From the NCBI GenBank assembly GCA_033675265.1, contig JAUJYZ010000447.1, positions 62,001-126,000 on the forward strand: a DNA stretch of 64,000 bases. The letters are read 5' to 3'. Positions within the stretch are counted from its first letter, which is position 1, and each line of letters opens with the position of its first letter. The stretch comes from Actinostola sp. cb2023. Its lineage: Eukaryota; Cnidaria; Anthozoa; Actiniaria; Actinostolidae. Shown piece by piece: positions 9,201-54,206 of this stretch. The notes beneath the pieces were generated by a model. The model did not search any database and was not told where the DNA came from. It saw only the letters and a program-made list of their open reading frames with translations. A program made the translations under genes and the position numbers.

Positions 9201-9976
9201 ACGGTTTGTCTGGTTTTTCCTGACATTGACTCTTAAGCGGTCACCTGTATTAAGCGGACGCGGTCACCCTCTAAAGGCCCGAATGAAGAGTTTTTATTGT
9301 CTCTGACCTGTATTAAACGGTCACGTAAACACGAAGCAAATGTCAGATTCAGCAAATCCATTCATTTCAGCATAGTCAAAACTATGATTTCAGCAAATCT
9401 CCTAACTATGTGCGGCCCTATTGTCTTGCACTGCAAATATTTCTTGTATGAACTTGTTTAGCTCCAGCCAGATTGAGATATTGAGAAGGAACCTCTAACC
9501 CATACTGATCCTCCGCCTCTGTTGACGTGTTTCCGACCCTTTATGGACATGAAAAGCTTTCTTTGTCACTAAGCAAAGTCAATGACTTACTTCATGACAC
9601 CCCTGACTGAATTACGAGGCGCCAAATCCGCCAAATAAGCAAATAACGGAGTTCTTTCCCGTTCAGCCCAACGACATGTAGACAGTGTACATGTTAGCAG
9701 TTGTGTTCACAGAAGTTTACATGGACGAAGCCTATACGTACGGGGCCTCGGCATGTTTTAGATATGCTGTATTCGGTTGTTGTCCCTGTTCCTTGATGTA
9801 CATATAGTGTTGGTTTTGTCGTAAATAACATATTGGGCTGAAATAATATATGTTTATTGCCATTAGAATCACTTATTTTGTATATTTTCTAAAAACCTCT
9901 ATTAAGCGGTCAACCTGTATTAAGCGGTCAGTAGGGAATTCCCCGATGGTGACCGCTTTAAAAGAGAGGTTGACTG

Positions 9977-11853: not shown

Positions 11854-11855
11854 GG

Positions 11856-14388: not shown

Positions 14389-14896
14389 CGATCGGCATAT
14401 GTAACTGCAGCAATCGGCATATGTAACTGCAGCAATCGGCATATGCGACTGCAGCAATCGGCATATGTGACTGCAGCATTCGGCATATGCGACTGCAGCA
14501 ATCGGCTTATGTGACTGCAGCAATCGACATACGTGACTGCAGCAATCGGCATATGTAACTGCAGCAATCGGCATATGCGACTGCAGCAATCGGCTTATGT
14601 GACTGCAGCAATCGACATACGTGACTGCAGCAATCGGCATATGTAACTGCAGCAATCGGCATATGCGACTGCAGCAATCGGCTTATGTGACTGCAGCAAT
14701 CGACATACGTGACTGCAGCAATCGGCATTTGTGACTGCAGCAATCGGCATGCGTGACTGCAGCAATCAGCATATGTGACTGCAGCAATCGACATACGTGA
14801 CTGCAGCAATCGGCATTTGTGACTGCAGCAATCGGCATGCGTAACTGCAGCAATCGGCATACGTGACTGCAGCAATCGGCCGCATACGTGACTGCA
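14389..14896. repeat. 22-bp tandem array, about 23 copies, with 88-bp higher-order period
   Basis: The unit is CGGCATATGTGACTGCAGCAAT. In the centre (about 14460-14720) four variants cycle in fixed order (ATGTAA, ATGCGA, CTTATGTGA, GACATACGTGA), giving an 88-bp higher-order unit. Each unit contains a PstI site. The array is open on the minus strand in several frames and yields repetitive CCSH-rich peptides. I treat these as artefacts of the repeat. Confidence 0.9.
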
Positions 14897-15204
14897 GAGC
14901 TGAACACCTTAGGTTTCCTTGAAAGTTAAAAGACCCACTCTCTAAATCTGTTTTGTATTATCTAGTTCTAAGGAGGGTTGAGAAACGGGAGGGGGGCATA
15001 CTGTAAAGTCACATCTCAAGAGAGGGTGGTGTAATATGTAAATGGCTCAGTTATTCATCTCCGGTGTTAGGGGGAAGGGAGGTACGTAGTAAAGGTGAAC
15101 CACATCTTTCCCTTTCGGCCATCTTCGATATTAGGAAAACGGCAACATAGCACCGAACCGCCAAGATACTTGAAGACATTTATTTATTCAGCATAACTGT
15201 TCCC
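14897..15204. other. non-coding, nothing recognised
   Basis: G-rich patches near 14985 and 15070; no gene. Confidence 0.3.
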
Positions 15205-19417: not shown

Positions 19418-21580
19418 TTAAAAACAGAAAACACCTCCACCAATTGTAGTGCAAATAAACTGACCATCATTTAATACTGCTATATATGATGTGGGCTTGA
19501 CACTTAGTTTCCTTGTCTTTCCTATAAAACGACCATCCAATGTAAACTTATGAACCGAGCAAGAATCAAATTCACACACCAGTAGATTGTGGTTATTATC
19601 AATAGCAAGACCCCAGGGACCCTGGAACTGACCAGCAGCATGACAATTCCTTCCAATAGTGGATATTCTAGTTGGTGAGTTGTCTTTCATTTCAATCACA
19701 TGAATCACTTTGTTACTCTCATCACTCACGTAAAACAGTCCATTGTGTGTAACTGTGCAACATGGACTAAAACCTCCCTGATTTGACAAACTGAATTGAT
19801 ATTTATATTCACCGTTCTTTGTAAAGACTTGTACACGATAATTACCACGGTCAGTCACAACAATGTTACAGTCATCATCAACATGTACTCCACATGGGTT
19901 AGAAAACTGTCCATTGGCATTACCACGACGACCAAAGATTTTCACCAGAGTCCCTGTTATAGTGTTCACTATACATATTCTATTATTATCACAGTCAGCT
20001 ATCACTAAATCTGTTTCGTTGAGAAATGCTAAACCTTGAGGCCAACACAACTGTCCCTGTCCACTGCCTTTACTACCATACGTTAGTAACAAATCTCCAT
20101 CCATGTTGAATACTCTAACACAGTGGGATGTACAATCTGCTACAGCAATCCTACTGTTAGTCTTATTCACTGCAATATCAGTGAAGTTTCTAGATCCTGT
20201 ATTCAAGGCACTTTTTAACTTAGAATCTCCTGCTATTTCCTCCATGTGTTGTGGCTTGACATCCATCACTAGTTTCGGACTGTTAGATACAGCATTGCCG
20301 TTCACTTGAACCTGTGCTGTCAATTGACCAGCTACTTGAGGGATGAATTCCACTTCTATATTACCACCACTTGTCATTTTTCTTTTTTCCATTTTCACAT
20401 CATCTTCAGGTCTGATCTGTACATCCACATCATCAGTTGGTTCGTTATTGAGTTCTCCTGCAGACGTTTTAGTCTCCACAGTCAGCTTGGCTTTCTTCAG
20501 TGCCTCAAGATGACCGTCAACTTTAATTGTACTCAACATTGGGTCTGACTTACAACACAGTCGTACTTTTCCAAGTCCAGCGTTTACTTGTTGGCTTAGC
20601 TCTTTATTGGGCTCGAAGACTAACTTTGAACTTCCTCCCTTGAATGGGTTGTAGGTGCACTTGTTGGAGGAATCTTCCTGTTGAATGTCGACCATTTCAC
20701 TCACTAGTCCCTTTTCAAGGATGTTTCGGATGTATTCCTGTGTTGCTGGGATGTGACGTATTACACGCAAATTTCTGTCAGCCTTCGCTACGCTTTTCTG
20801 GATTTCATCCAGCAATTGTTGCTCGTGTTCAAGTAGAATATTGACTAACTTTTTGGTAGCATTTTGTACTTCTTCTTTGGCTTTCTCGCCGTCGCTTTTT
20901 ATTTTGAGAGCAATTTCCTCTTGCTGTTTCTTTTCCTTTGCGTTGCATCGTAGCTTCTCAATGTCCTCAAGGGTTTTAGAGAGCAGAGCTTTTTGAATGG
21001 CGGTGATCTCTTGTAAAGTCAACGTTTTATGATCCTTGTGGCCGTCTTTCAAGCACAGCCAACAGACAAATACCTCGCAGTCTTTGCAATATAAGTCCAA
21101 ACTTTGACTACACTGGTGAGTTTTACAAATACTTTCTCTTGTCAGGATGGCCTCAAGGTTTTGAACATTCTTCAAGTCTGACGAGGAAACGACTTTGTGG
21201 TCTTTATTAAACACAGAATGGTAGTTCAGACACTCGTCACACAACAGGCGATTGCAGTCAAAACAGTGCCACAATGCTGGAGAATGAGTTGCTGAAACAG
21301 AGCAAACCTGATCGGTTTCTACAAACTCCAAGACTTGTATGATTCTTGCATGTACAGGACTTGGTGGTAGGTCTTCCACGCTGCTTAGTTTTCCCATAAA
21401 CATTTCAGAGCAACATTTTGGACACTTGAAGATGTTGATGTCTCCAATGAGTTCAGCATTTCTCTTTATGCAAGGTTTACAGAATGTATGGAAGCATTCT
21501 ACAAGCTTGGGTTCAATCATTGTGTCGTTGCACAAGGAACATTGGACATCGTGTTGAAGGTTTTCAATGAAGGACTCCAT
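19418..21580 (-). CDS. TRIM-NHL E3 ubiquitin ligase (TRIM2/3/71 type)
   Basis: One uninterrupted 720-codon frame. Residues 14-56 form a C3HC4 RING with C14, C17, C29, H31, C34, C37, C53 and C56 all present. Two B-box zinc fingers follow at about 90-132 and 152-190, then a coiled coil at about 195-280. Next is a filamin/ABP280-like region at about 320-430. NHL-type beta-propeller repeats run from about 445 to the C-terminus, with repeated GQF..P.G/VADC..N.RV motifs. The family acts in the cytoplasm: RING recruits an E2 to ubiquitinate targets, and NHL binds RNA or protein. The length fits the family. The lack of introns suggests a retrocopy or a lineage-specific expanded copy, both common in cnidarians and molluscs. 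All key residues look intact, so it is probably functional. Confidence 0.93.
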   Translation of the reverse strand: MESFIENLQHDVQCSLCNDTMIEPKLVECFHTFCKPCIKRNAELIGDINIFKCPKCCSEMFMGKLSSVEDLPPSPVHARIIQVLEFVETDQVCSVSATHSPALWHCFDCNRLLCDECLNYHSVFNKDHKVVSSSDLKNVQNLEAILTRESICKTHQCSQSLDLYCKDCEVFVCWLCLKDGHKDHKTLTLQEITAIQKALLSKTLEDIEKLRCNAKEKKQQEEIALKIKSDGEKAKEEVQNATKKLVNILLEHEQQLLDEIQKSVAKADRNLRVIRHIPATQEYIRNILEKGLVSEMVDIQQEDSSNKCTYNPFKGGSSKLVFEPNKELSQQVNAGLGKVRLCCKSDPMLSTIKVDGHLEALKKAKLTVETKTSAGELNNEPTDDVDVQIRPEDDVKMEKRKMTSGGNIEVEFIPQVAGQLTAQVQVNGNAVSNSPKLVMDVKPQHMEEIAGDSKLKSALNTGSRNFTDIAVNKTNSRIAVADCTSHCVRVFNMDGDLLLTYGSKGSGQGQLCWPQGLAFLNETDLVIADCDNNRICIVNTITGTLVKIFGRRGNANGQFSNPCGVHVDDDCNIVVTDRGNYRVQVFTKNGEYKYQFSLSNQGGFSPCCTVTHNGLFYVSDESNKVIHVIEMKDNSPTRISTIGRNCHAAGQFQGPWGLAIDNNHNLLVCEFDSCSVHKFTLDGRFIGKTRKLSVKPTSYIAVLNDGQFICTTIGGGVFCF

Positions 21581-25164: not shown

Positions 25165-25515
25165 TATCGGCTAACGCATTACTCGAGGAATGCCAAGGCT
25201 AAAGTATCACGTGACATATCCCTTTTTGACATTTTTGGGAATGATACTAGTTTTAAATATTACAAGTATTCAATAACTTTCCTAGGAGAAACGTGAAGGT
25301 AAAAGTCGGCTTGTACTTGACGTATATATTACACTATCTTTGAAAGTTCATCACTGAATCTGGAAGTGCAACCTATTAAAGCAAAACTGATGTAGACATC
25401 CATCTTCGTATACGTTACAATACGTTACCACTTAGCTGGTCGCGTAAACTAAACACACTGACACAAGGTCACTGAGATATGATTCGGGTATTCCCCTGTT
25501 TCCTAAATTAGCGGC
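25165..25515 (+). repeat. dispersed direct repeat shared with 41185-41515
   Basis: About 330 bp starting TATCGGCTAACGCATTACTC and ending near TTTCCTAAATTAGC recur at 41185-41515. The last ~90 bp also recur at 27750-27840 and 32345-32420. Confidence 0.8.
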
Positions 25516-26335
25516 ATGCACTAAAACCTAGAACGCCGGTATGCCGGAAAAGCGGAACACCGGAATACTAAAACCAGGCACAACCCAAAAATCCGGAACC
25601 CCGGAATACTATAAGCCGGAACACTTCAAAATTGTCCGACTAAACCGGAAAGCCCCTATTTAAAAAAGCACAATACACTACAATAGTTTATTTCAACACG
25701 TATCGTCCAGAAGCGCAAACAAAAAAAAACACGGGAATACCGATTTATGAAAAACCCAGCAATGTATTGTTTCAAAAGTTCTTTTATTTTAATAGCTAAT
25801 TTATAATACCGTAGAATTCCGATAGTAACGGTCTCCCCCCCCCCGAAAATAACGGAGACCCCTAAATTAATGGTCCCCCCGAAAGTAACGACCCACCCTA
25901 AAGTAACGTTCCCGCTAACTGAGTGCAGGACTAATACGGCATTAACGTACTGACAGTATTATTGAACACTTTCACTGTATAGTATATACCGGTATTTGTT
26001 ACAGTTTACTTTATAATCTTGTAGATTGTTGTGAATAAATATCGTATAATTTAGCATGTGGACGACCTTTTGACATAACATGTATCTCGTTCTGTTTTGT
26101 GTTTGCAAACGGTTTTTAGTTTTTAACCATCCGAAAGTAACGGCTTCCCGAAAGTAACGGCCCCTTTGGCCTTGTCCGAGATTGTGACGTCACGAGAAGA
26201 GTACTGATTAGCATAATAGTCCAGTTCCGAGTTCTTTTTATCTCTGTTTCAAAACGAGTCCACGTGCGAAACCTTTCTTATGCAAATCTCTTTTTCCTTT
26301 TTCATGTAAATAAAACTCATTTTCATATGACAGGT
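25442..26335 (+). repeat. segmental duplication, copy 1
   Basis: About 880 bp match 27744-28619 in the same orientation. The match includes a 'GCCGGAACACCGG' rich tract, a poly-C tract and the left end of the TA-flanked element at 25809. It therefore crosses an element border and is a duplication of genomic DNA rather than a pair of LTRs. Confidence 0.75.
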
Positions 26336-27743: not shown

Positions 27744-28619
27744 TTATATTTGCCGTTAAACTAAACACACTGACACAAGGTCACTGAGATATGATTCGGG
27801 TATTCCCCTGTTTCCTAAATTAGCGGCATGCACTAAAACCTAGAACGCCGGAATGCCGGAAAAGCGGAACACCGGAATACTAAAACCAGGAACAACCAAA
27901 ATATCCGGAACGCCGGAATACTATAAGCCGGATCACCTCAAATTGCCCGACTAAACCGGAAAGCCCCTATTTAAAAAAGCACAATACAATACAATAGTTT
28001 ATTTCAACACGTATCGTCCAGAAGCGCAAACAAAAATAAAACACGGGAATACCGATTTAAGAAAAACCCGGCAATATATTGTTTCAAAAGTTCTTTATTT
28101 TAATAGCTAATTTATAATACCGTATAATTCCGATAGTAACGGTCTCCACCCCCCCCCCCCGAAAATAACGGGGCCCCAAAATTAATGGCCCCCCCGAAAG
28201 TAACGACCCACCCTAAAGTAACGTTCCCGCTAACTGAGTGCAGGACTAATACGGCATTAACGTACTGACAGTATTATTGAACACTTTCACTGTATAGTAT
28301 ACCGGTATTTGTTACAGTTTACTTTGTAATCTTGTAGATTGTTGTGAATAAATATCGTATAATTTAGCATGTGGACGACCTTTTGACATAACATGTATCT
28401 CGTTCTGTTTTGTGTTTGCAAACGGTTTTTAGTTTTTAACCATCCGAAAGTAACGGCTTTCCGAAAGTAACGGCCCCTTTGGCCTTGTCCGAGATTGTGA
28501 CGTCACGAGAAGAGTGATTAGCATAATAGTCCAGTTCCGAGTTCCTTTTATCTCTGTTTCAAAACGAGTCCTCGTGCGAAACCTTTCTTATGCAAATCTG
28601 TTTTCCTTTTTCATGTAAA
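27744..28619 (+). repeat. segmental duplication, copy 2, cut by an ACAAGACGCTCA element
   Basis: Matches 25442-26335. The similarity stops at about 28619, exactly where ACAAGACGCTCAATGAGCGT begins, so the second copy is interrupted by that element. Confidence 0.7.
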
Positions 28620-29365
28620 CAAGACGCTCAATGAGCGTACACTCGGGCATTATGACAAGGAAAATGTCAGTTGTGTGAGGAAGAACCTGAAAATGACTGA
28701 CAGTTGCGTGACGAAAAAGACTATATATATATGTGTCGGTGAGCATAGATGACAAGAACAATGACAGTTGCGTGAGGAGGGACCTGACAATGACTGACAG
28801 TTGCGTGACGAAGGAGACTATGTATATATGTGTCGGTGAGCATCTCTGAATCGTACTTCCGTAGCACGTACTTGGAACGTCCAGTTGAAGTTCATATTCA
28901 TGGTCAGACGGTTCTGATAACGTCTTTGGTTTCTTCGTTATCGCAGAGGAAAGTCGGTCAATTCAGTAAATCGTCGAATCAAAAAAATATATTTGCAATA
29001 TTCTTTCATAGTTACAAGAGCTCTCTCGGTGTGCAGCATCTGTATAATGTAAGCTTTAGTGCAATTCTAAAATTAACGAAATGAATGATCGAAATGACTA
29101 TAAATAAATGCATGGATGAATGAATAAATACAAATGAATGAGTTTAATTTCTTAGTGTAATTTTAGACTTGAATATAGAGTTTCGCGCGCTGCGATTGGT
29201 CGAACTGTTCAAGTGCTGAAGTGAAATCAACAACGATTATGGTGAATATTCACTCAGCTATTATGATGAATATTCACCGTGATTGACTTCGTATTTTGCA
29301 AATAGTTGTTAACTAGATGATTGTATTCAATTCATGATTATTGATATTCAGTTTAACTTGTACAC
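28620..29365. other. ACAAGACGCTCA-family element remnant and flank
   Basis: The end at 28619 is followed by two copies of the subterminal block (TGACAATGACTGACAGTTGCGTGACGA...ACTATGTATATATGTGTCGGTGAGCAT). No matching opposite end is visible nearby. There is no gene. Confidence 0.45.
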
Positions 29366-30550
29366 TCACGTCGGGCACAAATGACCCCAAAATCGGCAAT
29401 GTTAAACGGCCTCTTTTACATTAACCTTCGTATTTTCAACAATTTGACATCAATTGGGATGAAAGTTTCGGAGGTTGCTTACTACATGTAGTGTTTTATT
29501 TTAGCATGCTAAAAGTTACCACTGACGTAATTGTGACGTCATCACGAATTGTTACATTTTTTGCGAAAATCGAGATCACATTAAAACGTTCTGAAAAGTA
29601 GATATTTCGAAAGAGAATAACATTCTCTAAAACTTAGTGTAATTTTTATCTCGCTGCGGTAATATATGGCTGAGTTATAAAGGATATCGATGAAATGACG
29701 TTCTCGTGATCATTTATGGTTATTAATAGATGTTTGTATTGGACGAAGCTGAAAATTTTGGTGTGAAGTGTGAAGACAAAAGATTTTCAAACAAAAAAGT
29801 TGAATGAAGAAGTTTATTTACGAATGGCTCTATATAATTCATTTGGGAAATTATGAACAATATATATAAAAATAACTTCTTCATTCAACTTTTTTGTTTG
29901 AAAATATTTCGTCTTCACACTTTGTATATTGAAAGAACTAAGACCCCCCTCAAATCGTATCGTTTTAGATTTTTGACTTTTTGAAGAGAAGTATTAGAAA
30001 TATTAATCTCAAATATTGACAGATTCCCGTTATGTCATAATGACGTCACTAATATTTTAAAATATCCATAATAAAGATCGTGGACCAAAATTTTCAGCTT
30101 CGTCCAATACAAACATCTATTAATAACCATAAATGATCACGAGAACGTCATTTCATCGATTTCCATTGCTCCGTAAAGCTTTAATGCTATTTAGGTGACG
30201 TCATTTCTATGACGTCATCATAAAATGAATATCCTTTATAACTCAGCCATATATTACCGCAACGAGATAAAAATTGCACTAAGTTTTAGAGAATATTATT
30301 CTCTTTCGAAATATCTACTTTTCAGAACGTTTTAATGTGATCTCGATTTTCCCGAGAAATGTAACAATTCGTGATGACGTCACAATTACGTCAGTGGTAA
30401 CTTTTAGCATGCCAAAATAAAACACTACATGTAGTAAGCAACCTCCGAAACTTTCATCCCAATTGATGTCAAATTGTTGAAAATACGAAGGTTAATGTAA
30501 AAGAGGCCGTTTAACATTGCCGATTTTGGGGTCATTTGTGCCCGACGTGA
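29366..30550. mobile_element. large foldback element, TCACGTCGGGCAC ends
   Basis: TCACGTCGGGCACAAATGAC at the left and its exact complement at the right bound 1185 bp. About 330-350 bp of each arm pair almost perfectly. Further inverted blocks inside (29700-29790 against 30085-30165, and 29740-29810 against 29870-29930) make nearly the whole element self-complementary. Arms are rich in TGACGTCA motifs. No target duplication is certain. Confidence 0.8.
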
Positions 30551-30894
30551 CTGGCTTCAGATATATTTACAAAGGCATCTATAGCACTTAGTCTATTTTC
30601 AGTCAAACTTGCTTGTTCACCTTGATCGTTGGCCATGACGGTATGACGGTGATAACGACGGTATATGCACTCCATTAAAACTCTCTCTTTGATATAGAAA
30701 AATACTATTTTTAACAGCATTAACACAATAAAAAATATAAACAGAATGTAAACAAGGATTGACTTCATTTTCGCCTCAGATTTGTGTTCTTCTTGATGCG
30801 ATTTCAACTGAGTTGTTTTCTCACCTTTGGATTTGTCCATGTTGGAATCTAGCTTCAAGTTGTGGTATATGTTGTCAAGAACATGCCGAGACAC
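30532..30894 (-). CDS. hypothetical single-pass membrane protein or exon
   Basis: A 120-codon frame with a charged N-terminus (KSKGEKTTQLKSHQEEHKSE), one strong membrane segment at about residues 45-66 (ILVYILFIFFIVLMLLKIVFF) and a polar tail. The last codons and stop lie in the TCACGTCGGGCAC foldback element that ends at 30550, so the natural 3' end may have been replaced. No family is recognised and no splice donor is obvious. Real but truncated, or chance. Confidence 0.25.
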   Translation of the reverse strand: MSRHVLDNIYHNLKLDSNMDKSKGEKTTQLKSHQEEHKSEAKMKSILVYILFIFFIVLMLLKIVFFYIKERVLMECIYRRYHRHTVMANDQGEQASLTENRLSAIDAFVNISEASHVGHK

Positions 30895-41515: not shown

Positions 41516-41741
41516 ACGTAATTTCGTGAAAATGTAATAAATAATAAATCTGCTGAAAAGCGTGGCATAACATGCCCCCCCCCCCCCCGGTTAGCTTGGT
41601 GCATCCCCCGGTGCACCGGAAGGAGCGATAGGTGAAAACTAAAAAATAGTGCAAGTAAATTATTTCTACATTTCACATGCATTTGTGGCTTCTTCATAAG
41701 TTTGCTTTCCAAGGCATATGTAATACGGCATTGCATATGTA

Positions 41742-42307
41742 TGGTGGCCCATCGTTATCATAGCAAAATAACAGTAACATTTGTAATATTCTACAGAAAA
41801 TGTAAATTTAAAAATGAAATTAGAAAATATATATTTAAAAAAAAGAAGAAGAAAAATTAGTAAAGTAAAAACAGGATGAAAATAAACTGATTTATAAAAA
41901 TAAACTGATTTTTAAAAATAAACTGATTTTTAAAAAGAAACTGATTTTTAAAAAGAAAAAGAAAGAAAATAAGGGGGAAAATAAGTAAAGAAAAACGAAA
42001 GAAAATCAACAGTGTTTTAAAAAGAAACAATTTTAAAATGAAAGAAAGAAAACAAAAAACAGAAAAAATTAAAAGAAAATTAAAAAAAAACATGAAAAAA
42101 CCCGAAAAAGCAACCAAAGAGCTAAATCAAAATGACATTGAAAATCATATCGCGACATTGTATTTTCAAATTAATTTTGATTTTGCTATGATAACGATGG
42201 GCCATCGATCAAAACCAAAAATCAAAATCAAATTTCAATGTTGTGTTGCGGCCCATCGTTCTCATAGCCCGCGATGTTTTCGGTCAGCACACTTCCATCC
42301 GAGAGTA
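41742..42307 (+). repeat. left terminal inverted repeat of the 12-kb transposon
   Basis: Matches 53241-53822 in reverse complement. Contains the 18-bp motif GCCCATCGTTATCATAGC at 41747-41764, its inverted copy at 42185-42202, and a one-mismatch direct copy at 42251-42268. An ~18-bp AAATAAACTGATTTTTAA tandem repeat lies at 41879-41960. An open frame crossing the TIR on the plus strand is non-coding in my view because the other TIR carries the same frame. Confidence 0.92.
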
Positions 42308-42366
42308 GGCTGTGCACTTCCACTGTACTGTACTGTCGTCTACTTTTATTTGGTAAATAATGAAAT

Positions 42367-42845
42367 ATGCCGCCAAAACGACAAGCTGTGTGGACCGATC
42401 TCAAAGCAAAGATGGTTGCAAAACGTACACGTAAAGACGACACTGGTCGAGTTAAAAAAGGTTCCGCACCACATGAAATCGTGGTTCAAAGATTGGCCTC
42501 GGAGCCAGACACCAAGCAGACTTATAAGCCAGTTCAACCAAGAGAATTTGTGAGGTTTGAATACGAAGATTTCTCACTTCTTAATCTGAAAAAAAAGCCT
42601 GTGCAAGTCATTTTAACCTCCCCGCAAGCACTTGCGATATTCTCGTGTCAAACAAAGGCCCATCATGCACTAACATAAGCCAGATTCCACACCGAAGAGA
42701 CAAGGTGAGAATTAAGTTTTAATTATATTATCATATGCTTATAAGCTTAAATTATATGTCAACAATCAATCAGTCAATGGATAATTTATTCTCAGTATCG
42801 AAAACTTTTAGCTAACAGCTTGTTGTGAAATTATGCACTAGTCAA

Positions 42846-42893
<48 letters not shown>

Positions 42894-44203
42894 TAGCCTA
42901 TTCAGCGTCAAAATCCCCACTATGCGGAACGTACCTACGGTCAAATGCCCAGAGGCTTATTTATTTCAAGCACGTTTTTTTTGGGGGGGGGGGGGGGGGG
43001 GGGGGGGGACTTAATGGAGGGAGTGGGCTTAATAAAAATTGTGCTTCAAAAAGGGGGGCTTATTGGAGAGGGAGAGAGGGCTTATTGGAAGGAGGGGGCT
43101 TAATAGAGGATTTAGGTAAGCTTATATTTGTATGGACACATAGTGACTGTATCCTAGCTGCTATATTAAACATGCAATTCGGAATCTAATGTTGTAGTTT
43201 TCTCTAGGTGTACCTGGTACGCTTTGTGGTGCACCAAGAGCACGATGATGAGGATGAAGACAATGAAAGCTCTACATGTAATCTGGCCTACCAAATATCA
43301 AGTAGTTCAAACAAATATCCTTCAAGGATTTGGTCCGTTCCATCAAGTTCAGAGACACCCTCATGGAAAAAACTATCTGCCTCTCATGAAACAAGCAAGT
43401 ATCCAACATCAGTGTCAATTGATGTACTGCTAAATTCTGGAAAACTTGTAAAACCCAAACCAAGAACTCAAGCAACACTGATTTTGGAAAAATTTGACAT
43501 AAGATTACAAGATTGGATAGGCAATGGAACAATAGAAGTGCTTGTAGAAGATCAGCCATTTTCTGAAGGGGGATTCAGAAAGGCCTTCAAATGCATTCCA
43601 ATCTCAAAAGATGATTCTAAAGGCTGGGTTATTAAGACCTACAATGACAAAGCCATTAATACCATTGAAAAAACATTGACAATGACAATTGAGAGTCACA
43701 CAAGAAAACAGGTGCAGTTACACGGTGTAGCACATGAACTGACAAAACGGTTTGCATCTAAAGTTCCATTTACATTTGGAAAGTCATTTACTTACAACCA
43801 TGTATTTTACACTACTTTCAAAGACGAAGCAGCAACAGTTGAGGAATATGTTCCTGGTGTCTTTGCAAAGTATGTCAACAATGATGGCAGCTGTATCCAA
43901 CCCCCAACTGAAAGTGATCCTGACACAGTAGACCTGTTTGATAAAGCCGAGTGTTTGGTTCACTTCAGTTATGAATCAACTAAGAAAGCAATGATGCTCC
44001 TTGACATACAGGGTTCAGAGTACCAGCTGTACGACCCTGAAATTTCCACATCAGAGTTGCTTTCAAATGACAATGAATTTTACTTCTGCTGTGGGAATTT
44101 AACAACTGTAAGTATCAAACGATTTGCAGCTACCCATGAATGCAATGGGTACTGTGAAATGTTGCATCTGAGTAAGCTTAATATTGAGAGCATATCATTG
44201 TAG
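42367..44203 (+). CDS. alpha-type protein kinase, two exons, frameshift in exon 1
   Basis: Exon 1 is 42367-42704 and exon 2 is 43208-44203, joined in phase 0. The donor is CAAG|GTGAGA and the acceptor TTTTCTCTAG. Exon 1 encodes a basic N-terminus and a domain with K-AC-SHF and C-DIL-GPSC-QIP motifs known from other alpha-kinase proteins. The second half is in a different frame from the ATG frame: an A8 run at 42589-42596 is off by one base. Exon 2 continues VYLVRF and then the alpha-kinase domain, with GGFRKAFK (nucleotide-binding region), EEYVPGVFAKYVNN, LVHFSY, LLDIQG and YDPEIST (the conserved D-P), and a C-terminal zinc site H-x-C-x3-C (HECNGYC). Catalytic and zinc residues are intact. 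Stop TAG abuts a small MITE at 44203-44341. AATAAA follows at 44268. Confidence 0.85.
42705..43207 (+). other. intron of the alpha-kinase gene
   Basis: GT-AG intron containing a run of about 47 C at 42847-42893 and a long G run at 42981-43008, which may be unstable or mis-sized in the assembly. Confidence 0.75.
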
Positions 44204-44341
44204 GGTGATTCCACAGTAATCCTCCGTTGTGGAGAAGACGAATCAGAAACATTTATTTAAGTGTACAAATAAATTTTCCTGAATGTCTTCTCTGCAACAA
44301 AATACAATCTTTAATTTCGCATAACTGTGGAATGACCCTGT
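44203..44341. mobile_element. small foldback MITE at the kinase stop codon
   Basis: AGGGTGATTCCACAGT and ACTGTGGAATGACCCT are inverted. The kinase stop codon TAG overlaps the left end, so the insertion may have set the present C-terminus and 3' UTR. Confidence 0.5.
44268..44273 (+). terminator. AATAAA polyadenylation signal of the alpha-kinase gene
   Basis: AATAAA 65 bp after the stop codon, inside the small MITE; the nearest good signal on this strand. Confidence 0.45.
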
Positions 44342-45286
44342 AATCTCATTTTGAAGATTCAATCTGGTCAACAAAGTTGTTGTACATTTGTGTTTAGATT
44401 TTTTAATATTTGTTATTTGGCTAATTCCTATAACTGGTGCATATTGTAAATATATGTGGCACAGCTTACATGCATATCTGGAATTTTGACAGAGACAATT
44501 TCCTCCAAAGTGGATCAGTGATGAGAGTATCAGTAATAGCTAGAATACTACATGTAGTTACTGTGGGAATGGCCATTGTTTGTTTTTCAGATATTAATTA
44601 AACTTTCAATATTTTCAAAATAATTTAACTTTCGGTCGGCTTTGGTGCCTTCATGTTTGTCAATTAACAAAGCATTATATTTATTTCTTATTTACTAAAA
44701 TTAATAACACTTTTCTTACATTGTAACTACAACATTTATAATTAATATTTGTCAAGTGTACCCCACCTTTTTGACTGCATAGTGTGGGATCCTACTGAAA
44801 TAAAGAATGACCATTCCTTTAACAATTCCATTAGTTAATAATATAACTGTTATTGTTGTGTTTATATAATGCAATCACTATATTCTTCTTGTGTGACTGT
44901 CTATTTACATATGATACTTGATAGTCTAGCCACAAGTCCCTACCTGTATACCTGTATTTTTATAAGAAAAATAAATTATCTGTAATGACTGTTCACTTAC
45001 TTTTTTCATGCACTCATTTTATGGAGGAAACTATCTACCACAGGAAACCCAATGCATGAGAAAGAAGATAAATATATATGTGTGAAAAATATTGAAAGAA
45101 AAAAAAATATAGTAGGGGCTTGTGGCAGGTCTACAAAATTTCATACATGTAGTCACTCCAATAATTATGGGTACATACACATGTATGTGGGTACATACAC
45201 ATGTATGTACCTGAAATATTTCAAGGTTCCCACAGTAGTTGTGAGATTACGTTGTTATTGAATAGTAGTTAAGTTTATTCAGGTAT
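44342..45286. other. AT-rich space between the two convergent genes
   Basis: No gene. TTTATT at 45274-45279 would be AATAAA for the minus-strand transposase, about 225 bp beyond its stop. A GGGTACATACACATGTATGT tandem pair lies at 45170-45210. Confidence 0.4.
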
Positions 45287-45408
45287 TAGTGGCCATCCCA
45301 GGGAGGCGACCCCCGGGCAACCCATATAGGATTGATAGGGGATTTGTTTCAGAAGCATTATTGTTTGCCCCAGCTCGGGAGTTTTTGCCCCTACACGATG
45401 GCCACTAT
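45287..45408. mobile_element. short MITE, TAGTGGCCATC ends
   Basis: TAGTGGCCATC and GATGGCCACTA bound 122 bp in the 3' region of the transposase gene. The interior has CCCCGGG and GTTTGCCC blocks. Confidence 0.55.
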
Positions 45409-45501
45409 TAGTAGTGATTACAGTTACTGTTGTAGTTAGGTTCACCTGCATATGATTTTAATAGAGAAAAACATACAAATGTACACTAATGTGCATGTAC
45501 A

Positions 45502-48500
45502 TCATTCCTTGTAATGAGCTTTTAAAAACAAGTATGTTTCAGCTGCATCTTTGCTTTTGACTTCAGATATCTCTGGTATTATATTTTCACATTTTTCTCT
45601 CACATCTAATGGCAAGTAATCTTCATTAGTATTAAGTACTCCTGACATTTCAGCAACCTCATCAAGTTCTTCCTTAGAAACTGGCCAGCCTAGTTTTAGA
45701 ACAAACAATTAGTTAAGAAAGTTAATATACTGTAAGTTCATTGATAAACAATACCCAGTAATAAATAATTTATTTACTATATTGCTGTTATTGTCTTTCA
45801 GTGTATATTGTTGTACAATTATGTGTATTGGGGGACCCTCACATGGGACAGCCCCTGTGTTTTATTATGGACCCCCAGGGTTAGAAAACGAAGCATTTTT
45901 ACAATATGAGCAAGTTCTTTTTAGTCTAACGTGAATTTGAGTTCACATCTAGCTTAATTTCAGCAAAGCTTGTATCACAACATGAAAGCTTAATTATCTG
46001 TAATGTACATTACCATGATCCCTTGCAGAATATCTTTCAGGAAAACTGTACAGATGATTTGGGATGCCTTTTGGCAATTGTGAATTAGTCTGATTCCTGA
46101 TGCGATGAGAATTCCATACTGTTTCACAAAAAATATTTAGCTCTTTTTGTATAATAGGGATATACACAAAAGCCAGTATAAATCTAAAATAAAAACATCC
46201 AGATCTTATGTCAAATATTTCATCTATTTTACATGTTTACAAATATTTAAAACACACTGTAGTATATTAGTACCCAGTCCCTCACATGTACCGGGAAAGG
46301 AATGCTGGGAAGGGGGAATAAACATGGCGGCTGAAGTCTTGTAGTTAATAGTTAAATCTGTATTCATTGTGTTTACTAGCGGGGTTAAACACTACACACA
46401 CCTATCTTTTTGGTTTTCTGGATCATAGAGTCCCTCATCAAAGAGCATATTCAGCTGTAGTTTGAAGTATTTTTCAAGGCGATGATGAAGTTCTCTCCAC
46501 CATCTCTCAATCTAAAATGACATTGTAAATATGTCAAGAGAATTAGGGAAATGTAAGAACAACCAGGCTACATACATTAGTTGGTAATAATGTACTCCTG
46601 CATCTATTTGCTATATGTAAATTTGAATCAAAATATTAAAGTTTATTTATTTTAATTTCCAACATGAATAAATAGTTACCATGAATAAATTATAACCTTA
46701 TTGCTAGTGGAGGACCCATATAGTACTGTGTCTTCAGGGTTTGTAATGTCATTGTGGTCCCTTCTCAAAAATGCATGTATTGTTGCCATTTGTCCAGTTT
46801 CAGTGCCCTTATCCAAACGTAAACGACAGCTGATGACTACACAAAAATTGAATTAAATGTTTTAAGTTGTATTAACTTGTCGAGCAGAGGGATGGGATGT
46901 AGGTGCCTTCGCTACAGCAGAATTCCCGGCAATAAGCAACAAGCCAATAAGGAGGTAACCATGGCAACCTAGCCACAGGTCACCCCCTTCATGGGCACCT
47001 TGTCACACTGATTTCTCAGTGGAAAACTTGTTATACTTACCACTCCTTCTTCTATCAATGGCGGCTGGGTGGGTGGGGCAACAGCAAAAACCCACAAGCT
47101 AACCAGCAATGGCAGAGCAAAGCAACGAGCAATAGCGGAGCAAGCGGCATGCGAGCAACGTGGCGAGCAACTGAGCCAGGCGCATGCGCAGTACCAATGA
47201 TACCGCTGACCTGGCATCTCTCCTAGTTAACTTTGCTTACTAGTAACCACATTTAACTTGTCGAGCAGAGGGATGGGATGTAGGTGCCTTCGCTACAGCA
47301 GAATTCCCGGCAATAAGCAACAAGCCAATAAGGAGGTAACCATGGCAACCTAGCCACAGGTCACCCCCCAAGATATCCAATTCCAAGCAAACTGAAGTGC
47401 TTGGAGAAAGTGGACCGTGGCGAGGCCATGGTTATGTCCACCATCCCCAAAACAGAACTCCAAGCACACCATCCCTCAATCGCGCTATTATCATCATAAG
47501 ACCCAGAAGTAGACAAACTTACCCAATCATGCCAGTTTTTTAGAAGAATTTATAATCACGTCACAAGGGGTCTGAATGTACTGTTTATATGCGTCACTTC
47601 TCCAACGGCCCATAACTTGGATGAGATGATCTGGGATGCCCACTTTTGCTGCCATGGTTGCAGCACCAATCCGGAAACTATGACTGGAATAGTTTCCTTT
47701 ACAGCCCGAAGCTTGCAAAATGAATCTCAATCGGTCTGTAACCAATTGACGAGATAACGGCTGTCCGTTCTCCATTAGAAACAGGGGGCCAGAATTGTTA
47801 CCCCGGCGTGTCAAATAGTCTAGAACTGCATGGACTGCGCAGATAGATGAGGACCCTTGGCCAATATAAATGAAACTTCCTTGGCGAAAAGGATCAGTTT
47901 TAGAAGCTTTTATGTTTAAACGCAAGCATGTAGGTAATGTAGCAGAGTCCACAGTCACATCCTCGGCCGATAAGTGAAACTTGGAGTCGAATGCAGAAAG
48001 ACTTGGTACTGTAAATTCGGCAGATCTTAGAAACCCGAAATAAGCCATGGTACATGCTGCCCAGAACATGCAGTCATTGTAGGCAGTTACATCCAGACTT
48101 GACCGTATCAATCTCAAGACTTCACAAGTCACTGGCAATCTCATATTTGTTCTAGCTACTCCTTGCATACGTTTGATACCTCTAACCACCCGCTGCAGTC
48201 GTAAACAATTTTGCAATGGATCTGCAAAACCTTGGTCAATATGTAAAGAGCGAACAGCAGACAAATATACTTTAATTGAAGAGTGTCGCAATGATTCTGC
48301 CAACATTGTTGCAAATAAACAAAGTGTCCATTCATCAGCTGGGCATGGAGAGCCAGATGATGAGAGGTGACCACTTGTATAACAGAAATCAATAAACTTT
48401 TTCTGTGCACTAGAATAGCTCCTATGTGTAGACTGGGCTAAACCCTGATGCATGAATGTTAAACAGCGACCTTCTAAGGAGTTTGAGACAAAAGCGCCAA

Positions 48501-51500
48501 CAGCTGCTGCGGAACTGGTGTCGGAGATTTCTTTGCCAAAGGGGCCAATTGGCGGAAAACCTGCCAATTGAAACGAGATAAAGCATCAGCTATGCCATTA
48601 TGAACTCCTGGTACGTGAACAGCAGAAAACGTAAAACCCCACTGTGCTGCAGCAAGCAGCAAATTTCTCATCAGATGCATTATATTGGGCTCTTTCGATG
48701 TTCTAGCATTCAAAATATACACTACTGACTCATTGTCCACCCTAAAAAGTACTCGCTGGCGGCACCATCGATCCCCCCAAACATGAGCTGCAACCACCAC
48801 TGGGAACAGTTCCTTGTATGCGATGGAAAGACCAAACTGGTCAGGAGACCACTGCCCATTAAACCATTCGGACTCCACGAAAGCTCCAAAGCCAATGGTA
48901 CCTGAAGAGTCTGAGCCAACACACACGTTGGGCGGATTCTCCAAGCCGGGAAACAAAAAGAAACTTATTCCATTCCACTGGCCAAAGAAATCGAGCCACC
49001 ATTTCAAGTCTTTTTTGAACTCTGAATTCAGACGAATTGGATGGTTGTCGTTACGGAAGCAACATATCAGGTCAATCATACGGCGAAGGAAAGCGCGACC
49101 AGGCCATACGACCTTGCATGCGTGGTGGAGCAGACCTATCAACGATTGCAATTCTTTCTTGCGACACCATTTATACCCTGACCAAGCTAATAGCAAATCA
49201 TATATAGCAGAAAATTTTTCATCAGGAAGACGCGCTGTCTCAGCTACTGTATCCAATTCGATACCAAGAACCACCATGCATGATGCTGGGCCCACACATT
49301 TTTGAGGGTGCAACGGGAGGCCTAGATCCTTAATCACCGAGGTAGCAATTGACAGATGATTAGCGCATATGGGTGAATTTGCAGGACCAGCAATAACAAA
49401 GTCATCTAAGTAATGCAGGATATCCTCGATTGAATAATTGGATTTCAAAATCCATTCTGCTGCCTCTGCCACAGAATTAAAGATGCTAGGGGCAGATCGC
49501 AAGCCAAAGGGTAGCACAAGATCAATATAGAACTTTGACCGCCATCTCATTCCGAGCAAATGGCGATCAGCAGGGTGTACTGGAATATTCCTATAAGCAG
49601 TTTCAATGTCAAATTTTGCCAAAAGAGCTCCCTTCCCAAATTTTGTAAGCATGCTGATAATATCATCAATTTTAATGTATTGAAGAGACCACGCCTCCGC
49701 ATCAATTCCATCATTTACGCTGTGGCCTGAAGGAGACGATAAATCAATAATCAGGCTCCACTTCCCAGGTTGGCCCTTTTTCGGAATCACGCCAAAACTG
49801 CTAATCTGGAGAGGATGAATTGGGCTAGAATCAAAGGGGCCAGCTACCCGTCCTAGCTTAACCTCATTACCAAGGTACGCATCAATAACTGCAGCATGCT
49901 GATAGGCAGATGGTTTGTTCTTTTTTGCTGCTTTTAAGGAAACAGAGGCATCAAAACCTAGATTGAATCCTTCTTTAATACCTTGCAAAACTTGTGCAAC
50001 CATTGCTCTATCTGGGTGATTTTGTAATTCATGCGAAAACTTTGCATAGTTCAATGGTGAAATGTTTGCTACTGCCGGAAGGGCTGCACACGATCCTAAA
50101 AGAGAACCAATATATTACAAATTGCCTATAGCGTTAACTAGTTTAACTACACATCGCAAATGAGAACTGTAACAATTAACAATAGGAAGGTTAAATTATT
50201 ATTATTATTATTTTTTTTTTTTTTTTTTTTTTTTAAGTCTAGTTTGTGCTTTTGTTTTCTTTATCTCTTCCTTCGCTTCACATCTGAATGCTCCTCATGA
50301 CGGCTATGCTCTGATTTGGACGATCTTGAGTAGCAAGAGACACTGCGGTGCTCACCAGAACAGGTGCTACAGGCGTGACGGAAGCGGCACTGCGTAGAGG
50401 GGGCAATGCAACGCCCTGCATTCCACGAATGGCAGATGACTTTGGAGAATTTAGAGCCCTCTGCCTCTTGACCCGATGTAACCGTACTTGAGGCAGACAC
50501 CCTCGGGCGTACCTGGGCCCCAGCTGTATGGAAGTTATAGAGCTGAACACTCATCGTAGACCAGTTGATTTGCCTCTCAGCCGCTGCTTGCTCCCTGAAC
50601 TCTTTGTCATAGTTTAGCCATGCACTGCCGCTAAACTGGCGATAAGTACGTAAAATGAGCAGCTTATACTTTATCAAGTCCACCCAGCGGTTTGGGAAAT
50701 AAGACCCCAAGATAAGTGAGAAGATTGTAAAGGCCTCCAACCATGTGACAATATCGTTTATCTGGCGTTTGTTCTTTTTAGGGGTAGGAGAGAACACCAA
50801 ACGTCCTTCGAACATCAACTGCGGTTCTGGCTCGTTAAAGGAGATGTTCTCGGGTAATAGATCTTCAAAATTTACGTACTTGCCAAGTATTATTTGAGAT
50901 ACAACTTTGTATGGCACGGGGGAATAACCCGGGCCGATTACGAAGGGCTGCTGAAAGGTTGGAGCCAATCCGGGCGACTGTATAACGCTTTCGAGTGTAG
51001 AACTTCCCGCGGCGCTATTTAGAGCTGCCGATTGATGTGAAGCGAACGGTGACACAAATGACGGCACAACAGGGGTATTGAACGTACCTGAACTGGCTGA
51101 AGAAGACGACGCAGGAATGCCGGTTGCCGAACCCATAGGCATAGTAGCGGCCACATGTGTAGGATTTGGTGCGATATTTGTCGCTGATGGCCATGGTAAG
51201 GTTGTTCCTGCTTGACCAAGAAGGGCCGCCTGTTCGGCGATGGAATTTGTCCTTGTAGTTGTAGCCAAAGGTCCAGCCAACGGCAAAGGGGTGCTGGTCG
51301 CCACAATGCTTGGTACCGGCAGCGATGGCGCGATTCCCGCCGAAAGTAATGCCGAGTTTACCATCGAGGACAACGGGGCCTTCATCGCTTCAATTAACGA
51401 GGCGATTAATTCCGAAGATGCCACGGTACCCGAAGGCGAAGCAGGAGTGACCGTGGGCGAAGCCGCCACCAAAGAAGTACTAGTGGTAGTGGTAGGTGAA

Positions 51501-52046
51501 TCGGTCGATGAACTTGAAGACGACGGGATGAAACTGTCCCTGCTGTTTCTCGTCTCTCGAGGCATGATTCCTATTAAACCAAATACTCCCCAGAGATAAC
51601 TTCGCTTTTAAAAGGCAGAGTAGTTGTACAGGCAATCACTTTGCAGAAATTCGGAACCAACCAGGCGAAAGCAACAGCAAAAACCCACAAGCTAACCAGC
51701 AATGGCAGAGCAAAGCAACGAGCAATAGCGGAGCAAGCGGCATGCGAGCAACGTGGCGAGCAACTGAGCCAGGCGCATGCGCAGTACCAATGATACCGCT
51801 GACCTGGCATCTCTCCTAGTTAACTTTGCTTACTAGTAACCACATTACAATGTTATACATAGCTATTGAAATATTGTTGGACTCAGCTGTTGAACAAGTA
51901 AGATATAGTATGTACTGTATCTTGGACCACGGAGCACCCTTGAAAGTGGGGTGCCAGATATATACATGTATTAGTAGACTAGTATATATCAGACAACAAT
52001 GTATTGTGACAACCTACATTTGTATTTGGCTAAAAGTGTGGGGGGT

Positions 52047-52077
<31 letters not shown>

Positions 52078-53227
52078 AACCCCCAGTCCCCCATCTCCGC
52101 AGACCCTGTGTATGCTTACATTGTATAGTCTCAATCAGTATATCAACACATATCTTTATCTTAATTGTCTCTGATTTAAAATGTTGACATTGTCATATAG
52201 AAATAATACACTGCATGACATGACATGACTATAGACATAAACATAAACAAAATACATTGCGCTTGATGAAATACAGGGTAATTAAACATATAGAGCAGAG
52301 AGGAATGGATCAGGGAGGAGGGAGAAATGGCTAAAAATAGAGGTAGGAGGGAGAAACAACTGGAAAAAAAATGGGAGGGAGAAAAATGACCTAAAAATTA
52401 GGGAGGGTGGATATTTAAATGCCTGTTCCTACTGTACTAGTTCTCAATCTGCTCCATACTTCTCACCTCTAGTATTGTACAGATACTGTAAATACCATTT
52501 ACCAATTAGAAATGGGCTTGAATTTGACATCCATACTCGAAGGTAGAGTAGCTTGCAACTAAACACATCCTGCATTCCATAAATAGCTAAAGGAAATCTG
52601 TTTCTTGTAAAGCCCATCAATTTATCATGACCATCTCCAGAAAGAGTATGATTCGGTCCCTGTACAATGAATATCAAATAATTATCTTTTTGGTGGAGAC
52701 AATGAATTATTATACGAATATAATTTCTAAGGCTTATTTAAATGATAAGGCATTATATTTGTAAGTAATATGAAAGAAAATACAAAAACTATTACCAATG
52801 AAGTAAACGTTCCAGTTTGTCCTCTTTTCCTCTTTTTTGCTTGACCTACGTTCCCTCTTTCAAGTAGACCTTCCTGGTCAACATCTGTCAACACATCGTA
52901 AACGAGGGAACGCGGAACAGCTAAACCATGCTGTTCTCGAACTTTGCGCTGCATCATCCTATATCCCAGTAGCCTGCCAGGTCCATCTATTTCAGCTTGT
53001 ACAGCCTTATTTACATCGTCCAAAGGGATATCATAATCCACGTACTTGATACCAAATACACTCATTCTCCGACTTAAAGTGGGCAGGCTCCAAGCATATT
53101 GCGGATAATCCCGACTTAAAAAATCCAATACCTCTTCTCGTTTCATGTTTTGCAATACATATTTTTTTATATCTTCTTTTAACTCATAATCTTCTTTCCA
53201 TTCGATATTTCTTATACGTTCGGCCAT
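45502..53227 (-). CDS. integrase-like DDE transposase, six exons
   Basis: Exons, in order of translation: 53227-52796, 52659-52467, 46836-46697, 46511-46402, 46183-46014, 45689-45502. All junctions are GT-AG and phases are 0, 1, 0, 2, 1; total 1233 nt (410 aa plus stop). The N-terminus (about 25-65) is helix-turn-helix-like (REEVLDFLSRDYPQYAWSLP), then GYRMMQRKVREQHGLAVPR and a basic patch KKRKRG. The catalytic core has D153 in SGDGHDKL (or D156), D217 in RLDKGTETG and E257 in IERWW, which is retroviral-integrase-like spacing. The tail after EGLYDP is KEE-rich and helical. The protein resembles 'integrase core domain' proteins often annotated in cnidarian, fish and fungal genomes. The start codon is 13 bp from the right TIR. 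It is likely the transposase of this element. No stop or frameshift was found. Confidence 0.88.
46872..46987 (-). repeat. Ngaro split direct repeat B2
   Basis: 116 bp matching B1; forms the 3' end of the element on the minus strand. Confidence 0.88.
47078..47253 (-). repeat. Ngaro split direct repeat A2
   Basis: 176 bp matching 51671-51846; directly adjoins B1. Both copies contain the start of a short open frame beginning MPGQRYHW, probably incidental. Confidence 0.9.
47253..47368 (-). repeat. Ngaro split direct repeat B1
   Basis: 116 bp matching B2 at 46872-46987. Confidence 0.9.
47527..48567 (-). CDS. tyrosine recombinase (Ngaro/DIRS integrase)
   Basis: 346 codons. The catalytic set of tyrosine recombinases is visible: R181 in GFLRSAEF, K223 in KASKTDPF, H296 and R299 in SHSFRIG, W322 in GRWRSD and tyrosine Y330 (or Y327) in AYKQYIQ. 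An N-terminal SAM-like core-binding region covers about 30-135. The first 94 bp overlap the end of the RT-RNase H frame in a different frame, so it may be made by reinitiation or frameshifting. The enzyme integrates the circular cDNA copy of the retrotransposon. Intact. Confidence 0.93.
   Translation of the reverse strand: MAGFPPIGPFGKEISDTSSAAAVGAFVSNSLEGRCLTFMHQGLAQSTHRSYSSAQKKFIDFCYTSGHLSSSGSPCPADEWTLCLFATMLAESLRHSSIKVYLSAVRSLHIDQGFADPLQNCLRLQRVVRGIKRMQGVARTNMRLPVTCEVLRLIRSSLDVTAYNDCMFWAACTMAYFGFLRSAEFTVPSLSAFDSKFHLSAEDVTVDSATLPTCLRLNIKASKTDPFRQGSFIYIGQGSSSICAVHAVLDYLTRRGNNSGPLFLMENGQPLSRQLVTDRLRFILQASGCKGNYSSHSFRIGAATMAAKVGIPDHLIQVMGRWRSDAYKQYIQTPCDVIINSSKKLA
48474..50054 (-). CDS. reverse transcriptase-RNase H of the Ngaro-like element
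   Basis: 526 codons. RT palm motifs: FDIETAY with D149, the PFGLRSAP loop at 182-189, and YLDD with D217 and D218. The RNase H domain has D382 in GSDSSG, E415 in YKELFP, D440 in RVDNES and D490 in GVHNGIADALSR. The domain order RT then RNase H fits DIRS/Ngaro elements, and the RT sequence style is DIRS-like. It copies element RNA into DNA in virus-like particles. No disabling change seen. The start may lie upstream of the ATG used here, because 50055-50260 is not otherwise assigned. Confidence 0.93.
   Translation of the reverse strand: MNYAKFSHELQNHPDRAMVAQVLQGIKEGFNLGFDASVSLKAAKKNKPSAYQHAAVIDAYLGNEVKLGRVAGPFDSSPIHPLQISSFGVIPKKGQPGKWSLIIDLSSPSGHSVNDGIDAEAWSLQYIKIDDIISMLTKFGKGALLAKFDIETAYRNIPVHPADRHLLGMRWRSKFYIDLVLPFGLRSAPSIFNSVAEAAEWILKSNYSIEDILHYLDDFVIAGPANSPICANHLSIATSVIKDLGLPLHPQKCVGPASCMVVLGIELDTVAETARLPDEKFSAIYDLLLAWSGYKWCRKKELQSLIGLLHHACKVVWPGRAFLRRMIDLICCFRNDNHPIRLNSEFKKDLKWWLDFFGQWNGISFFLFPGLENPPNVCVGSDSSGTIGFGAFVESEWFNGQWSPDQFGLSIAYKELFPVVVAAHVWGDRWCRQRVLFRVDNESVVYILNARTSKEPNIMHLMRNLLLAAAQWGFTFSAVHVPGVHNGIADALSRFNWQVFRQLAPLAKKSPTPVPQQLLALLSQTP
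50261..51565 (-). CDS. gag-like nucleocapsid protein of the Ngaro-like element
   Basis: 434 codons. The first ~210 residues are a low-complexity Ser/Thr/Pro/Ala region. Residues ~215-340 contain a folded region typical of DIRS/Ngaro ORF1 (KYVNFEDLLPEN, DIVTWLEAFTIF, YRQFSGSAWLNYD). A Cys/His zinc-binding cluster follows (CHSWNAGRC...CRFRHACSTCSGEH). The C-terminus is basic (VKRRKR). It likely packages element RNA. First ORF of the element, 107 bp inside A1. A poly-A tract (T run 50208-50234 on plus) separates it from the RT ORF. Confidence 0.85.
   Translation of the reverse strand: MPRETRNSRDSFIPSSSSSSTDSPTTTTSTSLVAASPTVTPASPSGTVASSELIASLIEAMKAPLSSMVNSALLSAGIAPSLPVPSIVATSTPLPLAGPLATTTRTNSIAEQAALLGQAGTTLPWPSATNIAPNPTHVAATMPMGSATGIPASSSSASSGTFNTPVVPSFVSPFASHQSAALNSAAGSSTLESVIQSPGLAPTFQQPFVIGPGYSPVPYKVVSQIILGKYVNFEDLLPENISFNEPEPQLMFEGRLVFSPTPKKNKRQINDIVTWLEAFTIFSLILGSYFPNRWVDLIKYKLLILRTYRQFSGSAWLNYDKEFREQAAAERQINWSTMSVQLYNFHTAGAQVRPRVSASSTVTSGQEAEGSKFSKVICHSWNAGRCIAPSTQCRFRHACSTCSGEHRSVSCYSRSSKSEHSRHEEHSDVKRRKR
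51671..51846 (-). repeat. Ngaro split direct repeat A1
   Basis: 176 bp matching A2; forms the 5' end of the element and probably holds its promoter. Confidence 0.88.
51847..52466. other. rest of transposase intron 2
   Basis: Contains a G run of about 40 at 52037-52076 and a GGGAGG-rich stretch at 52300-52400. No gene. Confidence 0.5.
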
Positions 53228-53240
53228 GTTTGGACCTGAT

Positions 53241-53822
53241 TACTCTCGGATGGAAGTGTGCTGACCGAAAACATCGCGGGCTATGAGAACGATGGGCCGC
53301 AACACAACATTGAAATTTGATTTTGATTTTTGGTTTTGATCGATGGCCCATCGTTATCATAGCAAAATCAAAATTAATTTGAAAATACAATGTCGCGATA
53401 TGATTTTCAATGTCATTTTGATTTAGCTCTTTGGTTGCTTTTTTTTTTTTTTTTTTCATGTTTTTTTTAAATTTTCTTTCTATTTTGCTGTAGTAATTTT
53501 TTCTGTTTTTGTTTTCTTTCTTTCGTTTTAAAATTGTTTCTTTTTAAAACACTGTTGATTTTCTTTCGTTTTTCTTTACTTTTTTTCCCCCTTATTTTCT
53601 TTCTTTTTCTTTTTAAAAATCAGTTTCTTTTTAAAAATCAGTTTATTTTTAAAAATCAGTTTATTTTTATAAATCAGTTTATTTTCATCCTGTTTTTACT
53701 TTACTAATTTTTCTTCTTCTTTTTTTTAAATATATATTTTCTAATTTCATTTTTAAATTTACATTTTCTGTAGAATATTACAAATGTTACTGTTATTTTG
53801 CTATGATAACGATGGGCCACCA
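53241..53822 (-). repeat. right terminal inverted repeat of the 12-kb transposon
   Basis: Complement of 41742-42307, slightly longer because of T runs. The 18-bp GCCCATCGTTATCATAGC motif occurs at 53800-53817 (inverted), 53346-53363 and, with one mismatch, 53280-53297 (inverted). Ends 13 bp from the transposase ATG, so it likely carries that promoter. Confidence 0.92.
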
Positions 53823-54206
53823 TAGACTAGCTAATAATTTGATTTAACAAAAAGCAGAGTGATAAAAGCCATTGTACACCCAAGACTTATAAGAAACTAT
53901 ATTTCTTTTGATATGTTTTATCTGCTTCAGTCATGGTTCAAATTAGCATCAGAGTCAGAGTAGGAATTGGAAGCATATAAGGAGCACTTTTGACTAGTGT
54001 GAACCACTCTCCTATACATGTACAGTATGATGTCAATGGGTATGTGTATGATCTACTGGTTTCTGTTCTTAGACAGGGTATCCATTTTCACTATGAGTAA
54101 ATGTTGCAGACTTTACATTCACAGACAAAAATAACATTTTGAATTTCTTGTCAAATATGTAACTTAGCTGTTCAAACTTCATTTAATTTAATTTGATATT
54201 TAAATT
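53823..54206. other. non-coding, nothing recognised
   Basis: A CTTAGACAGGGTATCCATTTTC motif near 54070 matches those at 11-kb and 24-kb. No gene. Confidence 0.3.

Follow-up and report, generated by a model that had tools for sequence, protein, structure and literature searches.

Does an alpha-kinase gene that lies beside a transposase gene, between two long terminal inverted repeats (TIRs), belong to the transposon that carries it? Many DNA transposons hold little beyond a transposase, and the question is raised by a locus in a 64,000-nucleotide stretch of the genome of the anthozoan Actinostola sp. cb2023 (assembly GCA_033675265.1, contig JAUJYZ010000447.1, positions 62,001 to 126,000), here called the window, to whose first letter all coordinates refer. 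On its anatomy we regard the element, which was analysed from this one copy only, with considerable confidence as an IS3EU-like (IS3EU/GingerRoot group) two-gene DNA transposon, and we consider it probable that the kinase is a regular gene of it.

The limits of the element are set by a left TIR at 41740..42307 on the plus strand (568 bp), which starts with TATGGTGGCCCATCG, and a right TIR at 53241..53824 on the minus strand (584 bp), which ends with CGATGGGCCACCATA; the whole span between the outer ends is 12,085 bp. Alignment of the two repeats gives 95.7% identity across 585 columns, the 242 outermost and 203 innermost nucleotides being identical and the mismatches confined to an A-rich middle. 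This similarity is far beyond chance, and agrees with the matching repeats of about 570 bp described in an initial annotation made from the sequence alone. Each TIR also contains three exact copies of an 18-bp motif, GCCCATCGTTNTCATAGC, two oriented like the end and one inverted; they lie at 41747..41764 (+), 42185-42202 (-) and 42251-42268 (+) on the left and, mirrored, at 53800-53817 (-), 53346-53363 (+) and 53280-53297 (-) on the right. No exact match beyond these six was found elsewhere in the 64-kb window, and they are possible binding sites for the transposase. Within each TIR there is in addition an internal inverted repeat (41745-41788/42161-42204 and 53344-53387/53776-53819), so that each TIR could fold back or yield short non-autonomous elements. 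No further copies of the element were seen in the window, where 240 relatives of the kinase and the transposase match only this locus by tblastn.

The transposase is encoded on the minus strand by six exons separated by GT-AG introns: exon 1 at 52796..53227, with the start codon at 53227; exon 2 at 52467..52659, with catalytic D153; exon 3 at 46697..46836, with catalytic D217; exon 4 at 46402..46511, with catalytic E257 in the sequence IERWW; exon 5 at 46014..46183; and exon 6 at 45502..45689, which contains the stop codon. Together they give an uninterrupted protein of 410 amino acids that matches PF24764 (rva_4, integrase core) at 3.2e-19. The three catalytic residues are conserved, and across 120 transposase relatives they are retained in 116/117, 119/120 and 119/120 sequences, respectively. 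A structure model of one relative (P0121; mean predicted local distance difference test score, pLDDT, of 84.7), built from an alignment of 26 selected sequences, matched TnsB, IstA and the Mu transposase at E <0.001 and retroviral integrases more weakly, from 0.002, with TM-scores of at most 0.33 against the query. As modelled, the protein has a DDE/RNase H-like core, and the structure allows no closer assignment. A Tc1/mariner-like element was considered and rejected, Pfam giving no match other than PF24764 and, below threshold, PadR.

The kinase gene runs on the plus strand, convergent with the transposase gene. Its predicted first coding exon (42367..42704) opens with an ATG at 42367, is followed by a GTGAGA donor after 42704 and is homologous to the N-terminal region of a kinase relative, P0064. 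The main exon is an open reading frame (ORF) at 43208..44203 that carries the alpha-kinase domain, matching PF02816 at 7.7e-28 and 98.3 bits (cut-off, 21.3 bits). It contains the conserved residues K143, D266, Q268, D276, H310, C312 and C316 (ORF numbering), of which we take the Lys/Asp/Gln/Asp set to be catalytic and the His/Cys/Cys set to be the zinc site of alpha-kinases, and as judged from these residues the active site in this exon is intact. Among 180 kinase-side proteins, gaps aside, the four catalytic positions are kept in 172/175 (K), 152/152 (D), 152/153 (Q) and 149/149 (D) and the zinc-site positions in 136/144 (H), 138/142 (C) and 135/139 (C), while in an average column of the alignment the majority residue is present in 55%. 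The convergent pair of an alpha-kinase and a complete DDE integrase thus stands as it was initially annotated, as do the start codons within 60 bp of the inner TIR edges: the transposase ATG lies 14 nucleotides inward of the right TIR and the kinase ATG 60 nucleotides inward of the left.

The N-terminal part of the kinase family was examined separately. In the predicted structure of P0064, modelled from an alignment of 40 sequences selected mostly for length, the N-terminus forms a ubiquitin-like domain; no PHROGs families were found for this protein. A search with residues 1-130 of P0074, confined to proteins whose length was between 0.55 and 1.75 times that of the query, such that shorter or longer ones would escape, gave 80 matches, of which 55 list an alpha-kinase domain and 25 no Pfam domain.

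The termini and the transposase together point to the IS3EU/GingerRoot superfamily. The element begins with TATGG at 41740 and ends with CCATA at 53824. According to the relevant passages of PMC10045372, this superfamily has an integrase-like DDD/E transposase and occurs in animals among other hosts, and in its complete IS3EU families the termini are always TA..TA and the target duplications usually 6 bp; the element described here resembles it in all of these respects except the duplications, none being seen at this copy. The initial annotation had the TIRs flanked by TA. There is indeed a TA at both ends, but it lies inside the repeat and not outside it, and since TA..TA is the IS3EU terminus it belongs to the ends of the element and gives no support to a TA target duplication. 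We read PF24764 as the IS3EU type of transposase, an assignment judged by the profile and the termini rather than by comparison with IS3EU proteins.

The initial annotation knew of no DNA transposon family defined by an alpha-kinase, but such families have been described. Excerpts of a 2025 paper (PMC12730594) report fungal IS3EU families carrying a TET gene, in which transposase and alpha-kinase genes have opposite orientations, as they do here. The TET/JBP-carrying elements are placed there in rust fungi and one truffle, with the TET/JBP gene between the two others, and the rust families end in TAYGG..CCRTA and have TIRs of more than 30 bp and 6-bp target duplications. The present element shares these termini and has TIRs of 568 and 584 bp, whereas its host is an animal, no 6-bp duplication is seen at its single copy and it has no TET/JBP gene. 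The 1.3 kb between the kinase and the transposase (44204-45501) holds no ORF of more than 69 amino acids that could be a third gene, which sets the element outside the TET-carrying subgroup. Given the fungal pairing in print, the association of kinase and transposase is neither the one-off capture for which the initial annotation had allowed nor wholly new. The word kinase occurs 0 times in the main text of PMC10045372.

The contigs of kinase relatives and of transposase relatives were compared by size. The comparison covered 119 kinase relatives (120 of 191 matches were listed, one without a contig being left out), 113 transposase relatives (120 of 315 listed, seven left out) and 56 of the 60 new identifiers from the N-terminal search (four left out). 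Among the matches listed, six contig sizes were common to kinase and transposase relatives: 3,130,359, 153,774 and 1,143,789 nucleotides with the full-length kinase search and contigs of more than 3,000 nucleotides, and 3,786,630, 85,488 and 5,435 nucleotides when the N-terminal search was added and all sizes were considered. Under a jitter model the expected number of coincidences is far below one. The 5,435-nucleotide case, which is about one element in size, pairs P0292 with P0164, each listed with two contigs; in the 3,786,630-nucleotide case the kinase-side protein, P0256, is short and has no listed Pfam domain. Pairing here means equality of contig size, and on a long contig the two genes could belong to different elements, so the recurrence of the pair in diverged elements is shown indirectly. 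Relatives were also sought in viral and prokaryotic contig collections, where none was confirmed, although these collections are uninformative on animal copies. We conclude that the kinase, proposed from the outset as a core gene, looks like a regular gene of the element on account of the shared contigs, the conservation of the active site among relatives and the reported presence of the same pair in TET-carrying fungal IS3EU elements.

One observation weighs against this conclusion. The distances among kinases and among transposases were not correlated: seven pairs gave a rho of 0.15 (p 0.27), and six pairs, of which two were matched by species only, gave -0.09. With so few pairs, whose identities are 40-58%, the test has little power. 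A 6-bp target duplication was looked for at this single copy and not found, the flanks outside the element being CATATG and GACTAG, and no duplication longer than TA is visible. The closest solved structures by sequence, namely the TRP-channel kinase, myosin heavy chain kinase A (MHCK-A), the putative protein kinase 4kuj and eEF2K, are all cellular proteins, and a helper function for the kinase is something that we deduce rather than observe. The last two points would suit a passenger captured from the host with no role in mobility. We consider such a passenger unlikely, since the pair recurs on same-size contigs in diverged elements, PMC12730594 reports the same arrangement in fungi, and the active site and the transposase triad are conserved to about the same degree. 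The TRP-channel kinase, MHCK-A and eEF2K share the kinase fold and catalytic residues with the protein described here, but the latter is borne by a transposon and belongs to a family with an N-terminal ubiquitin-like region, as modelled in P0064. It could also be argued that two distinct miniature elements whose ends are alike happen to flank host genes, because each TIR has an internal inverted repeat and either unit alone could resemble a short foldback element. However, the genes start 14 and 60 nucleotides inside identical inner edges, one of them is a transposase, and relatives of both lie on same-size contigs elsewhere, which leaves this explanation with a negligible chance of being right.

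Two further alternatives concern the history of this copy. Recombination between copies may have brought together ends from two different insertions, and the lack of a target duplication would then be accounted for: the outer 242 nucleotides of the TIRs are identical and yet the flanks differ. Given TIRs so similar, decay is an unlikely cause of the absence, and one would sooner think of recombination between two copies or of an atypical insertion. Recombination need not be invoked for an insertion that duplicated nothing, or TA only, and we regard it as a serious possibility though not as the favoured one; it would affect this copy only and is compatible with a two-gene IS3EU-like element. 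The second alternative concerns the first exon of the kinase, which P0064 matches in two frames (42376-42594 and 42591-42713), the switch falling within eight consecutive A residues at 42589-42596. As assembled, this change of frame may stem from mutation or from faulty assembly. The alternative is a programmed -1 frameshift at A AAA AAG, and the run CTGAAAAAAAAGCC fits what we take to be the slippery-heptamer type of motif, a -1 slip there entering the homologous downstream frame; but the relative P0064 passes the same place in one frame and homopolymer runs are error-prone, and we think a programmed event highly improbable.

The 12,085 bp between the ends accord with the 12-kb transposon of the initial annotation, but not all of this length is its own. 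Intron 2 of the transposase gene is occupied by a DIRS-order retroelement of 4,975 bp (46872..51846, minus strand) lying 35 nucleotides upstream of exon 3. Three ORFs were identified in it, encoding a reverse transcriptase (48474-50054; RVT_1 at 6.8e-16), a tyrosine recombinase (47527-48567; Phage_integrase at 9.2e-08) and a third product (50261-51565) that has no significant Pfam match and is gag-like by position only. Its split direct repeats (46872-46987/47253-47368 and 47078-47253/51671-51846) are 100% identical within each pair, in a layout that we take to be that of DIRS-order elements of the Ngaro/PAT type. In its reverse transcriptase, tyrosine recombinase and split repeats it resembles DIRS-order elements and is unrelated to the kinase transposon. 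The perfect repeats suggest a recent arrival, and the retroelement is a later, separate insertion, so that the transposon proper amounts to about 7.1 kb. With this insertion in intron 2 and the frame change in the kinase, the copy is, as assembled, probably not fully autonomous. Long runs of C or G are also present inside the transposon, at 42847-42893, 42983-43008 and 52040-52076, and are possible sites of assembly error.

How might the two proteins act? Since both genes begin just inside the same repeat, they probably have a common promoter and leader and are expressed together. In the scheme that we propose, each TIR would supply its gene with the same promoter and leader and so couple the production of the two proteins; the transposase would bind to the 18-bp motif, of which each TIR has three copies, excise the element and insert it elsewhere. 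The kinase would be a helper acting in trans. Its phosphorylation substrate would be either the transposase complex or a host factor limiting transposition through repair, chromatin silencing or protein turnover, and the N-terminal ubiquitin-like domain of the kinase could be a docking module that guides the enzyme. We put forward a specific helper role tentatively. A bolder proposal, which we offer as a conjecture with the balance somewhat against it, is that an alpha-kinase with a ubiquitin-like domain, co-expressed from twin TIRs, is a core mobility factor of the whole eukaryotic superfamily in fungi and animals, phosphorylating the transposase or the host ubiquitin, repair or silencing machinery; as a corollary, many cnidarian and tunicate gene models for TRPM6, myosin heavy chain kinase and eEF2 kinase would be transposon genes.

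A signalling-type enzyme with an intact active site beside a transposase suggests that protein modification is needed to move or to escape control, and the kinase gives research on how transposons evade host restriction a definite protein that can be tested. In the genomes of cnidarians, tunicates and rusts, transposons may also account in part for the names and expansions of alpha-kinase genes. Relatives among the matches are named TRPM6 (Exaiptasia, Stylophora and Paramuricea), myosin heavy chain kinase (Oculina and Ciona) or, in the case of P0289, after elongation factor 2, and these gene models may be transposon genes. For rusts, the pertinent passage of PMC4469406 describes the alpha-kinase family as highly expanded and a table row of the wheat-rust comparison in PMC5295586 contains PF02816; we infer that this expansion reflects transposon copies. 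Our literature search, which reached neither Repbase reports nor most subscription papers, found nothing beyond PMC12730594 that links IS3EU and alpha-kinases, no animal element with this architecture, no mention of the ubiquitin-like domain and no proposal of a transposon origin for such gene models. Such sources may already contain descriptions of animal IS3EU families that have a kinase.

Outside the element, the window contains other repeats and genes. An inverted pair at 2927-3687 / 8443-9203 (about 760 bp, 98.8% identity, about 4.8 kb apart) is possibly a second element with TIRs, and a shorter inverted pair lies at 29363-29687 / 30229-30553 (325 bp, 97.5%, about 540 bp apart). A direct duplicate of about 870 bp (25445-26310 / 27757-28619) is 95.9% identical, and tandem arrays occupy 11853-12677 (33 copies of a 25-bp unit) and 14376-14897 (23.6 copies of a 22-bp unit). 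On the minus strand, 19418-21580 is an ORF of 720 amino acids of the TRIM-NHL type (RING, B-box, filamin and NHL), in keeping with an animal host, and 60058-60130 matches a tRNA gene at 41.9 bits.

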